A stretch of DNA of 64,000 nucleotides from assembly GCF_964204865.1 (NCBI RefSeq), contig NC_135250.1, positions 19,459,395 through 19,523,394 of the forward strand. Reading direction: 5' to 3'. The notes under the pieces are model-generated. The model saw only the letters and a program-made list of their open reading frames with translations, had not been told where the DNA came from and searched no databases. The translations under genes were made by a program, and so were the position numbers. Of this stretch, positions 1 through 64,000 are shown piece by piece; position 1 is the first letter of the stretch, and each line of letters begins with the position of its first letter. This DNA comes from Styela clava (taxonomy: Eukaryota; Chordata; Ascidiacea; Stolidobranchia; Styelidae).

Positions 1-285
1 AATACCTATTATGGTGGCTGTAATAGTAGTAGCAAAATGTTTCATCCGAAATGACCATTGGTTGAAGGTATTTAATTTAAATACGGTATGTCTGTTTAAT
101 GAGAAGAAACAAACCGTTATATATGATATTACCAACGATTGAAAGTTTATAACTTGGAATTTTCACTCATCGATTCATACTTTGTAGACAAATAGTCAAA
201 TTAACTGGTTTAATTGAACAGAGATTGAACTGTTAGTAATATTCCGCTTTTTTCCTGAAATTGAGTGAAATTAGAAATTTCCCAC

Positions 286-335
286 AAAACAGAGGAACGC
301 TTCACGATTGTGCGTGTCATCCTTGCGCAGGGACC

Positions 336-366
<31 letters not shown>

Positions 367-392
367 TTCCTATGTACACTCGAAAGTAGAAC
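286..392 (-). ncRNA. U6 snRNA copy 1
   Basis: Core motifs intact. Deviations: C60U in the internal stem-loop, U23G, and A3U, which breaks one pair of the 5' hairpin. T4 terminator. Confidence 0.9.
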
Positions 393-725
393 ACTCCACA
401 CACTCCCAGTGGTCGTATATGCACGTAGTAATTAGAAGTCAAATATCTATTATGGTAGCTGTAATAGTAGTAGCAAAATGTTTCCTCCGAAATGACCATT
501 GGTTGAAGGTATTTAATTTAAATACGATATGTCCGTTTAAGAGGAGAAACAAACCGTTATATATGATATTACCATCGATTAAAAGTTTATAACTTGGACT
601 TTTCACTCATCGATTCATACTTTTTAGACAAATAGTCAAATTAACTGGTTTAATTGAACAGAGTCTGAACTGTTAGTAATATTTCACTTTTTTCGTGAAA
701 TTTATTGAAATTAGAGATTTCCCAC

Positions 726-832
726 GAAATAGAGGAACGCTTTACGATTGTGCGTGTCATCCTTGCGCAGGGGCCATGCTAATCTTCTCGGTATCGTTCC
801 AATTTTTTCATATGTACAATCGAAAGTAGTAC
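726..832 (-). pseudogene. U6 snRNA copy 2, ACAGAGA mutated
   Basis: A43C turns the box into ACCGAGA, which should hurt 5' splice-site pairing. G90A in the 3' arm and G14U in the 5' hairpin. The terminator run is interrupted (TTTCG). Confidence 0.88.
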
Positions 833-1165
833 ACTCCACACACTCCCAGTGGTCGTATATGTACGTAGTGATTAGAAGTCAAATATCTATTATGGTGGCT
901 GTAATAATAGTAGCAAAATGTTTCCTCCGAAATTAACATTGGTTGAAGGTATTTAATTTAAATACGATATGTCCGTTTAAGAGGAGAAACAAACCGTTAT
1001 ATATGATATTACCATCGATTAAAAGTTTATAACTTGGACTTTTCACTCATCGATTCATACTTTTTAGACAAATAGTCAAATTAACTGGTTTAATTGAACA
1101 GAGTCTGAACTGTTAGTAATATTTCACTTTTTTCGTGAAATTTATTGAAATTAGAGATTTCCCAC

Positions 1166-1272
1166 GAAATAGAGGAACGCTTTACGATTGTGCGTGTCAT
1201 CCTTGCGCAGGGGCCATGCTAATCTTCTCGGTATCGTTCCAATTTTTTCATATGTACAATCGAAAGTAGTAC
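1166..1272 (-). pseudogene. U6 snRNA copy 3, ACAGAGA mutated
   Basis: Identical to copy 2 in A43C, G90A, G14U and the broken terminator; an adjacent duplicate. Confidence 0.88.
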
Positions 1273-1630
1273 ACTCCACACACTCCCAGTGGTCGTATAT
1301 GTACGTAGTGATTAGAAGTCAAATATCTATTATGGTGGCTGTAATAATAGTAGCAAAATGTTTCCTCCGAAATTACCATTGGTTGAAGGTATTTAATTTA
1401 AATACGATATGTCTGTTTAAGAGGAGAAAGAAACCGGATAAGAGATGTTAAAAAACCTTTCATGGGAAATAGCTGAAAACGTTACAACATTTAAATAGGT
1501 ATTACGATGCAATCATTTCACAAGTACACAGGTGGACAGCAACATTGTGAATCAAAATAGCAGAATTTAAATAAAAGTACAATGTTATGCTTAGTCTTCG
1601 ACATTCAAGAAAATTTTTATAAGCGATAGC

Positions 1631-1650
1631 TATATATATATATATATATA
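1631..1650. repeat. (TA)10 microsatellite
   Basis: Twenty bases of perfect alternating TA within the island, with no flanking direct repeat noticed. Confidence 0.95.
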
Positions 1651-1968
1651 CAGTTTTGGTGATTGTTCAAACCGGACTTTTGAATTAAAATAGCCATACA
1701 TCGAAATATGAAAAAAAATAGGTTATTCCGTCGATTCTGACAATACATAGCACACTGTGAATGCAAAAATAGAAATAAATTTGATAATTTGCAAACCTCA
1801 AAAATACAAGAGATTGATTCAACATGACAAAGATGATATAGGTGAAACAGGTGATATAATATTTATGGTATAATATGTATTGAGTAATACACTGCAAAAT
1901 AAACGTAGTAGTCACTAAACATATTGAATCATAAAAAAGAATTTGTGATATTTATCTCAATAATTTAC

Positions 1969-2066
1969 CGAGCTTCCATGTGGACCCAGGGGGTGTCGGT
2001 TTACCCACTCGTTAGGACTTATTGATGGAGTCCTTCGCGCTCCAGAAAACTCTGAAACGCCCTATG
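1969..2066. other. GC-richer patch in island, possible dispersed-repeat fragment
   Basis: About 100 bp much richer in G and C than the surrounding island. It includes a small hairpin with GGAG and CTCC arms around 2027-2043 and several GGG/CCC runs. Its composition suggests a fragment of a mobile element or of an exon, but I recognise no family, terminal repeat or coding frame. Confidence 0.35.
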
Positions 2067-2573
2067 CCCATATCTAATAGAGTCTATTTAAAAGAATGAA
2101 TGAAAAACAGTTTGCATTCTATTTTGATATATCAGACAATGATGCATTATCTACAATCTTGGTCTTGGTAGCCAGTGATAGTGGCACTGCAGCTCAATTC
2201 GGAAAATAAATTCTATAAAGACATCAATAGTTACTGTTACTATTCATTGTGATTTTCACAAATGGGATAGACAAGACAGTATATTACAAAACTATTATGC
2301 ATTGGTGCAAAATAAATTGTAAATGTTTTAATTAGGCAATAAAATAGGAATCAAGCAGTAATACTGGCATGATTACACAAAACGAATGCATGTCACCAAA
2401 TACTTGTTACACGCACACTACAAAGTTGGTAAAAGTTGGTTGTAACACAAAAAATATTATCAGGAAAGTAACAAATCAGGGGGAAAATTTAACATTTTTA
2501 CCAAGTCATTAATGAATACAAACAGTACATCATTAATAATGTATTGGGAATAACAATGTCAGAGATTTCCCAC

Positions 2574-2680
2574 AAAACAGAGGAACGCTTCACAATTGTG
2601 CGTGTCATCTTCGCGCTGGGGCCATGTTAATCTTCTTTGTATCGTCCCAATTTTTTCATATGTACACTCGAAAGTAGTAC
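2574..2680 (-). pseudogene. U6 snRNA copy 4, degenerate
   Basis: First gene after the island. ACAGAGA is ACAAAGA (G44A), the AGC triad is AAC (G54A), and the internal stem-loop and telestem carry further changes. Confidence 0.88.
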
Positions 2681-2974
2681 ACTCCACACAATCCCAGTGG
2701 TCGTATATGTACGTAGTAATTAGAAGTCAAATATCTATTATAGTCGCTGTAATAGTAGTAGCAGAATGTTTCATCCTAAATGACCATTGGTTGAAGGTAT
2801 TTAATTTAAATATGATATGTCTGTTTAGGAGGAGAAATAAACCGTTATATATGATATTACCATCGATTGAAAGTTTATAACTTAGACTTTTCACTAATCG
2901 ATTCATACTTTTTAGAGAAATAGTCAAATTCACTGGTGTAATTAAACAGAGTTTGAACTGTTAGTAATATTTCA

Positions 2975-61957: not shown

Positions 61958-62290
61958 ACTCCACACACTCCCAGTAGTCGTATATGTACGTAGTAATTGG
62001 AAGTCAAATATCTAATATGGTGGCTGTAATAGTAGTAGCAAAATGTTTCCTCCGAAATTACCATTGGTTGAAGGTATTTAATTTAAATACGATATGTCTG
62101 TTTAAGAGGAGAAACAAACCGTTATATATGATATTACCATTGATTGAAAGTTTATAACTTAGACTTTTCACTCATCGATTCATACTTTTTAGACAAATAG
62201 TCAAATTAACTGGTTTAATTGAACAGAGTTTGAACTGTTAGTAATATTTCAATTTTTTCGTAAATTTTATTAAAATTAGAGATTTCCCAC

Positions 62291-62340
62291 AAAACAGAGG
62301 AACGCTCCACGATTGTGCGTGTCATCCTTGCGCAGGGGCC

Positions 62341-62371
<31 letters not shown>

Positions 62372-62397
62372 TTCTTATGTACACTCGAAAGTAGTAC
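62291..62397 (-). ncRNA. U6 snRNA copy 140, class A-like
   Basis: 3'-arm change as in copy 137 and U23A in the linker; 5' hairpin and core intact. Confidence 0.94.
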
Positions 62398-62730
62398 ACT
62401 CCACACACTCCCAGTGGTCGTATATGTACGTAGTAACTAGAAGTCAAATATCTATTATAGTGGCTGTAATAGTAGTAGCAAAATGTTTCCTCCGAAATGA
62501 CCATTGGTTGAAGGTATTTAATTTAAACACGATATGTCTGTTCAAGAGGAGAAACAAACCGGTATATATGATATTACCATCGATTGAAAGTTTATAATTT
62601 GGGCTTTTTACTCATCAATTCATACTTTTTGGACAAATATTCGAATTCACTGGTGTAATTAAACAGAGATTGAACTCTTAGTAATATTCCACTTTTTTCC
62701 TGAAATTGAGTGAAATTAGAGATTTCCCAC

Positions 62731-62837
62731 AAAATAGAGGAACGCTTCACGATTGTGCATGCCATCCTTGCCCAGGGGCCATGCTAATCTTCCCTGTATC
62801 GTTCCATTTTTTCCATAAGTACACTCGAAAGTAGTAC
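62731..62837 (-). pseudogene. U6 snRNA copy 141, class C
   Basis: ACAGGGA, C66G, A76G, plus a change at nt 80 (GTGCATGCC on the plus strand). Confidence 0.88.
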
Positions 62838-63170
62838 ACTCCACACACTCCCAGTGGTCGTATATGTACGTAGTTATTAGAAGTCAAATATCTATTATGG
62901 TGGCTGTAATAGTAGTAGCAAAATGTTTCTTCCGAAATTACCATTGGTTGAAGGTATTTAATTTAAATACGATATGTCTGTTTAAGAGGAGAAACAAACC
63001 GTTATATATGATATTACCATCGATTGAAAGTTTATAACTTGGGCTTTTTACTCATCAATTCATACTTTTTGGACAAATAGTCGAATTAACTGGTTTAATT
63101 GAACATAGATTGAACTCTTAGTAATATTCCACTTTTTTCCTGAAATTGAGTGAAATTAGAGATTTCCCAC

Positions 63171-63254
63171 AAAACAGAGGAACGCTTCACGATTGTGCGT
63201 GTCATCCTTGCGCAGGGGCCATGCTAATCTTCTCTGTATCGCTCATCGCTCAAA
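63171..63254 (-). pseudogene. U6 snRNA copy 142, 5' truncated
   Basis: Class B 3' part with ACAGAGA and AGC, but the 5' hairpin and promoter are deleted. A 7-bp duplication (ATCGCTC twice) sits at the junction, which then jumps to distal spacer. Confidence 0.9.
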
Positions 63255-63453
63255 ATATGTCTGTATAAGAGAAGAAACAAACCGTTATATATGATATTAC
63301 CATAGATTGAAAGTTTATAACTTGGAATTTTCACTCATCGATTCATACTTTTTAGACAAATAGTCAAATTAACTGGTTTAATTGAACAGAGATTGAACTG
63401 TTAGTAATATTCCACTTTTTTCGTAAAATTTATTAAAATTAAAGATTTCCCAC

Positions 63454-63503
63454 AAAATAGAGGAACGCTTCACGATTGTGCGTGTCATCCTTGCGCAGGG
63501 GCC

Positions 63504-63534
<31 letters not shown>

Positions 63535-63560
63535 TTCATATGTACACTCGAAAGTAGTAC
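63454..63560 (-). ncRNA. U6 snRNA copy 143, class A
   Basis: Body and TATA consensus, T4. Confidence 0.97.
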
Positions 63561-63911
63561 ACTTCACACACTCCCAGTGATCGTATATGTACGTAGTAAT
63601 TTGAAGTCAAATGTCTATTATGGTGGCTGTAATAGTAGTAGCTGAATGTTTCCTCCGAAATTACCATTGGTTGAAGGTATTTAATTTAAATACGATATGT
63701 CTGTTTAACCCTGCTAAAACGCTTAGCAGGAGAAACAAACCGTTATATAAAATAATACCATCGATTGAAAGTTTATAACTTGGAATTTTCACTCATCGAT
63801 TCATACTTTTTAGACAAATAGTCAAATTAACTGGTTTAATTGAACAGAGATTGAACTGTTAGTAATATTCCACTTTTTTCCTGAAATTTAGTGAAATTAG
63901 AGATTTCCCAC

Positions 63912-64000
63912 AAAACAGAGGAACGCTTCACGATTATGCGTGTCATCCTTGCGCAGGGGCCATGCTAATCTTCTCTGTATCGCTCAAATATTTTCATATG
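63912..64000 (-). ncRNA. U6 snRNA copy 144, class B, cut by window edge
   Basis: The 3' 89 nt are present; the 5' hairpin lies beyond the window. One change in the A-run (AAATATTTTC on the plus strand) and C83U-region change. Confidence 0.9.

Follow-up and report, generated by a model that had tools for sequence, protein, structure and literature searches.

U6 is a core RNA of the splicing machinery, and in Xenopus tropicalis it is encoded in a tandem array. Here we describe a tandem array of U6 small nuclear RNA (snRNA) genes in the ascidian Styela clava, found in a stretch of 64,000 nucleotides (the window; positions 19,459,395 to 19,523,394 of contig NC_135250.1, here C1, of assembly GCF_964204865.1) and followed beyond its edges. 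The closest described systems, for which we draw on parts of each paper cited, are the U6 arrays of several fish, Daphnia, oyster and Capitella, which are hosts of Dada-U6 transposons (PMC3706591). As here, U6 genes are arrayed in these hosts, which span several animal phyla; the part of that paper devoted to them, however, describes no analysis of constraint copy by copy, such as is given below. No Dada-like insertion (at the GCGCAA site of U6) was noticed in the spacings of the present array, in which no search was aimed at it. In zebrafish, numerous maternal U1 and U6 genes occupy Region-2 of Chr4R, the somatic ones lying elsewhere (PMC11075544). This resembles the situation in Styela, where many snRNA genes are amplified and others are found elsewhere in the genome; the zebrafish U1 and U6 genes, however, share one heterochromatic region, whereas here five snRNA families have their main clusters (of best-scored matches) on five contigs. 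Tandem snRNA repeats of varying copy number, as here, are also described in grasshoppers, where families of U1, U2, U5 and U6 were found in reads (PMC7754599), and in Xenopus, where each chromosome carries ~11 to 40 U1 or U2 copies (PMC10361878). Developmental snRNA isoforms, with gene copies used stage by stage, occur in fly, mouse, Xenopus and sea urchin, and Drosophila has three U6 genes; the part of that account on isoforms describes no array of 352-copy size (PMC4291461). U6 arrays are already reported in other animals (PMC3706591), and the present array joins that kind. The literature searched contains none of three exact U6 5' sequences taken from this genome, and we do not claim that such arrays are unpublished.

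A first-pass annotation had proposed about 144 U6 copies recurring every ~440 bp on the minus strand throughout the window and past its end. A cmscan search of the whole window returned 138 matches to the U6 model RF00026 at or above the gathering score, all on the minus strand and all clear of the cut-off of 44 bits (70.7 to 107.8 bits), confirming that the array is real. With the commonest U6 of the window as query, blastn found 144 places, of which 136 are nearly full length (aligned from query position 1-2 to 102 or beyond) and the remainder are fragments or cut by the window edge. The modal spacing is 440 bp, with 436-458 bp common, and the period given by Tandem Repeats Finder (TRF) is likewise 440 bp. 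The array is not continuous across the window: ~1.1 kb without U6 interrupts it (at about 1437-2560), and several copies are fragments. When neighbouring sequence was included in the blastn search, the array extended over C1:19,458,839-19,627,515 (168.7 kb) and comprised 352 U6 places, every one on the minus strand and head-to-tail, of which 343 are nearly full length. The array and the parts of a representative unit are placed in the window as follows.

1..64000, minus strand: portion of the U6 tandem array with 144 of the 352 places (cmscan, blastn); 2 U6 places lie left of the window and the rest right of it.
13642..13748, minus strand: representative intact U6, equal to the array consensus at 107/107 nt, 106.4 bits with RF00026.
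13795..13814, minus strand: proximal sequence element (PSE) of that unit, CCACCATAATAGATATTTGA, at -66 to -47 (from sequence).
13772..13777, minus strand: TATA-like CATATA of that unit, at -29 to -24 (from sequence).
13642..13645, minus strand: RNA polymerase III (Pol III) terminator TTTT of that unit (from sequence).
8693..8799, minus strand: U6 with perfect RNA sequence, its promoter lacking the 3' half of the PSE and the spacer between PSE and TATA.

The tandem amplification comprised an entire Pol III gene, upstream promoter and terminator included, as the annotation had suggested. Of the 352 array copies, 230 have the 20-nt PSE exactly and 328 have it with at most one mismatch; 330 carry an exact CATATA and 334 the TTTT terminator (diversity values and counts of core, PSE, CATATA and TTTT, here and below, cover all 352 units). 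This is the external, type 3 layout of Pol III promoters, with a PSE at about -65, a TATA at about -30 and a T-run terminator, and transcription is predicted only. An insect-type promoter was considered and dropped, the PSE looking closer to the human one.

Few U6 genes were expected outside the array, and among the 41 best matches listed there are two, both dispersed on C4 and identical to each other over 106 nt. From nt 20 the array consensus equals them up to nt 107 (first gene) or nt 106 (second gene); the differences fall at nt 6, 8 and 13, within the 5' stem-loop. The helix is kept, C8-G13 of the C4 genes being U8-A13 in the array and G6-U15 being A6-U15, and the 5' end is predicted to fold alike in both. 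Upstream, CACCAYAA at -65 is common to the array and both C4 genes, which have CCACCACAA at -66 where the array has CCACCATAA. In a comparison without gaps, identity of the C4 pair is 95% for the PSE and 92% from -45 to -20, and no more than 27-29% beyond -90, indicating that the promoter parts are conserved. Since the array consensus matches the C4 genes at all but three positions, which preserve pairing, and carries a PSE at -66 and CATATA at -29, the founder of the array was a Pol III U6 gene.

That the individual copies are complete U6 genes, as the annotation had taken them to be, is not supported for the array as a whole. Perfect sequence over nt 1-102 is found in 39 of the 352, and identity with the consensus over all 107 nt in 33. 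The consensus has all the core elements; among the copies, ACAGAGA is exact in 242, the AGC triad in 320 and nt 55-80 (the internal stem-loop (ISL) and U4-pairing region) in 176, and U6 is as diverse as the spacer (see below). In the copies that combine a PSE of at most two mismatches with CATATA and TTTT, the core is kept in 123 and nt 1-102 are perfect in 33. Position 66, which we take to lie in the U4-pairing part of U6, is C in 280 copies and G in 65; as the three U4 loci read retain GCGCAG opposite this part, the G66 copies would mispair.

Four other major snRNAs, U1, U2, U4 and U5, are multi-copy or arrayed in this genome, and U6atac and U12 are not; the genome-wide searches list best-scored copies, so all counts are lower bounds. 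U5 has at least 46 matches, 42 of them on C13 between 6,266,491 and 6,467,598; within the seven array loci that were read, the usual distance between copies is ~426 bp. U2 also has at least 46, of which 39 lie on C6 (17,529,476-17,788,488, often 1169 bp apart, 140.8-153.6 bits), 4 on C10 and C3 (171-179 bits) and 3 on C16 and C10 (134-136 bits). At least 42 matches each were found for U4 (31 on C4, 11 on C10) and U1 (36 on C5, where the two orientations both occur, 4 on C10 and single matches on C2 and C18), as against one match over the cut-off for U6atac and three, two of them over the cut-off, for U12. A PSE-like motif similar to CACCAYAA is seen by eye upstream of 3 dispersed U2 genes, 3 dispersed U5 loci, 3/3 U4 loci and 5/7 U1 loci (the U1 loci L043, with 9 nt only, and L046, also short, were not judged). 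Array RNAs are distinct from those of dispersed genes not only for U6, with its three nucleotides in the 5' stem-loop, but also in the U2 and U5 array copies read; such a difference is a feature of maternal or embryonic snRNA genes too. Diversity within U5 comes to 0.030, compared with 0.075 downstream; just upstream it is 0.087, and further upstream 0.20 (28 distinct units from four array loci, each locus picked for one high-scoring copy; the value of 0.20 is possibly raised by the alignment of units of unequal length). In the sample read, the U5 array copies thus look constrained, unlike the U6 array. The C6 array U2 copies read (L053 and L056) differ at many positions from dispersed U2, yet keep GTGTAGTA.

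We lean towards the view that the U6 locus is an snRNA dosage array, presumably expressed, where a minority stays intact while the bulk of the copies drifts. One functional U6 gene (PSE at -66, TATA-like element at -29, 107-nt RNA, TTTT) would have been amplified together with ~333 bp of its own flanks, and repeated unequal crossing-over, including that of blocks of 5 or 9 units, would have produced 352 head-to-tail copies on one chromosome. The units fall into clusters that form an ordered pattern along the array, and pairs of units more than 99% identical are commonest at a lag of 5 in its left and right parts and at lags of 9 and 18 in the middle, as is expected from unequal crossing-over of blocks. 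The intact subset (the 39 copies perfect over nt 1-102, and the 123 with scored core, promoter and terminator) may be transcribed by Pol III and may provide a high-dosage supply of U6, most plausibly for oogenesis or early embryos. The remaining copies would be drifting passengers carried along by crossing-over, with selection acting on the supply and not on single copies. The multiplication of U1, U2, U4 and U5, and not of U6atac and U12, is consistent with a need for additional major spliceosomes.

A retained minority is suggested by the distribution of haplotypes in the 328 near-complete units (24 of the 352, with more than 12 alignment gaps, were excluded from window and haplotype tests). 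The perfect U6 haplotype (nt 1-101) has 39 carriers. In flank windows of this length the commonest haplotype is carried by 14 units at the median and by no more than 30, and just 4 of 340 windows of 101 nt, starting from -3 on, come up to 39. In U6, 33 units match the consensus throughout the 107 nt, compared with 12 at most for any of the non-overlapping flank windows, and differences in U6 are barely correlated with those in the flanks of the same unit (r = 0.05). On our reading the array is mixed: most units drift and a minority is retained, with a modest signal for the latter. Diversity was also compared between units of functional and of degenerate type, types defined by seven U6 sites; because this definition introduces an ascertainment bias into the diversity values, we base our reading instead on how many variants have few carriers, and on the haplotype test. 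Nor are ratios of U6 to flank diversity within clusters used as evidence of selection, since they spread from 0.00 to 2.33 over the 14 clusters listed (0.98, 0.59, 0.75, 1.70 and 1.51 in the five largest).

A number of observations weigh against a dosage array. Mean diversity is 0.068 in U6, 0.069 upstream (-213 to -67) and 0.084 downstream (352 units), and mean differences per 107 nt are 4.39 in U6 and 3.69 in flank windows. Variants present in one unit, or in at most three, are as common in U6 as in the flanks (ratios 1.11-1.19, not significant), and in the core (nt 37-80) the observed/expected ratio is 1.10-1.63 for variants in at most five units and 0.82 for commoner ones; over nt 1-101, after correction for base composition, it is 1.34 for variants in one unit, 1.01 for those in at most three and 1.04 for those in six or more. 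With U6 diversity on a par with the spacer and observed/expected ratios near or above 1, average constraint on the U6 RNA among the array copies is absent. The whole scored core together with TTTT is exact in only 136 of the 352 copies. The haplotype excess is modest (39 versus 30) and is gone with 60-nt windows, 139 of 381 of which equal or exceed nt 1-60. For the 5' stem-loop, a lower stability is predicted in the array (-2.9 kcal/mol) than in the C4 genes (-5.4 kcal/mol), and the 3' half of the PSE differs between the two. Some plain flank is as uniform as the promoter (diversity ~0.032-0.035 at -143 to -114, and 0.041 in the PSE), so promoter uniformity alone is no proof of selection. By eye, no clear CACCAYAA stands upstream of the 2 U2 and 3 U5 array copies printed. 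Finally, the dosage role, oogenesis especially, is something that we infer.

A strong rival is a second explanation, which we hold to be a serious though lesser possibility: that the array is satellite DNA born from a U6 gene, spread by unequal crossing-over and silent or nearly so, with the C4 genes supplying U6. Tandem units without constraint at the level of the copy, and higher-order repeats, are features of satellite DNA and are found here; the equal diversity of U6 and spacer, the lack of depletion of few-unit variants in U6, the changes in the RNA that whole clusters carry, and the near-identical pairs at lags of 5 and 9 units all fit such an origin, as do a 13.8-kb block, inside the array, of a satellite of the type found at contig starts and the conserved PSE and TATA regions of the C4 genes. 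A silent satellite is harder to reconcile with the 39 of 352 copies that are perfect over nt 1-102 and with the excess of the perfect 101-nt haplotype, the commonest of all 101-bp windows falling on U6. Most copies also have a promoter close to the consensus (328 of 352 for the PSE and 330 for CATATA), though some plain flank is equally uniform. Moreover, a chance satellite does not predict the multiple copies or arrays of four further major snRNAs. The U5 array copies, too, look constrained in the sample read.

That the array is an assembly artefact, a repeat collapsed, expanded or scrambled, is very improbable, even though long tandem arrays are hard to assemble. The 253 kb examined around it contain no N bases and have non-U6 sequence flanking the array on both sides, all within one 32.7-Mb contig of an assembly of 376.6 Mb in 379 contigs (15 of the first 20 contigs measure 18.7-32.7 Mb each and together make up 361 Mb). 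The 136 near-full copies of the window include 86 distinct U6 sequences, the commonest present 15 times, and the cluster pattern is ordered; the exact copy number may nevertheless be off. Repeated insertion of U6 retro-pseudogenes, which are common in mammals, or of a U6-derived short interspersed element (SINE) deserves almost no credence, being contradicted by the single shared spacer, which includes an upstream promoter, a part that retrocopying of the RNA would not bring along, by the single orientation and regular period, and by a search with the 213-bp upstream spacer, all 41 listed matches of which lie in this array (349 first-look candidates, 40 scored).

Beyond the dosage array itself, one may speculate that the genome holds a second complete set of major-spliceosome RNAs, although we think this rather unlikely. 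Amplified variants of U1 (C5), U2 (C6), U4 (C4), U5 (C13) and U6 (C1), spread mainly over five chromosomes, would be used together at one life stage and the few dispersed genes would serve the soma, the minor spliceosome remaining unmultiplied and the majority of U6 copies drifting because dosage is what is selected. We rate this proposal lower because no clear PSE motif precedes the U2 and U5 array copies. With 352 assembled copies and two reference genes outside the array, it becomes possible to measure how a near-invariant, essential RNA gene evolves once copy number lifts selection from the single copy. The same genome offers internal contrasts, between a drifting U6 array and a constrained U5 sample, and between multiplied major snRNAs and U6atac and U12, which are not multiplied. 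Array U6 can be distinguished from C4 U6 by the three stem-loop nucleotides A6, U8 and A13.

The regular succession of units in the window is broken or altered at the following places.

1437..2560, no strand (edges approximate, ~1.1 kb): non-U6 interruption of the array, seen as a 1408-bp spacing in blastn.
52260-52313, 56233-56286, 57073-57126, 59708-59761 and 61446-61499, minus strand: partial U6 copies of a 54-nt 5' class, a truncated unit class with five copies (blastn).
9122-9160 and 63171-63244: further partial U6 copies (blastn).
33762..33868, minus strand: the near-full-length U6 that scores lowest in the window (70.7 bits, 87.9% identity).

The interruption at 1437-2560 is partly near-identical to sequence beyond the left end of the array (translated stretches C1:19457770-19458216 versus C1:19461014-19461345), which would be a sign of duplication at the array edge. 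A second interruption, C1:19578081-19591828, lies to the right of the window and consists of the 13.8-kb tandem satellite block, the unit of which recurs at the starts of several contigs. Units of 458 bp (for example upstream of 47288-47394) owe their greater length to an 18-bp insert. The 21-nt string TTAAGCGTTTTAGCAGGGTTA around this insert occurs 32 times in the left and middle parts of the array and 0 times in the right part; it occurs 140 times, on the other strand, in the 13.8-kb block, and is also present in the satellite at several contig starts. The insert was thus probably derived from the satellite of that block.

No tRNA genes were found in the 64-kb window by ARAGORN. Searches for COX1 and for GFP each gave 0 matches, the second being uninformative because the control genomes gave no match either. 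A 16-nt ascidian spliced-leader pattern matched 2 times, compared with 1 for its backward control, and so lends a tunicate origin no support. About 13 kb left of the array, C1:19440882-19445886 holds a retrotransposon resembling a long interspersed nuclear element (LINE), with two long open frames of 442 and 1165 residues, the longer of which resembles, by eye, an endonuclease plus reverse transcriptase. Telomere repeats of the TTAGGG type, the presence of which speaks against most insects, stand at 6 of the 20 contig starts read, 2 of the 20 reading only N.

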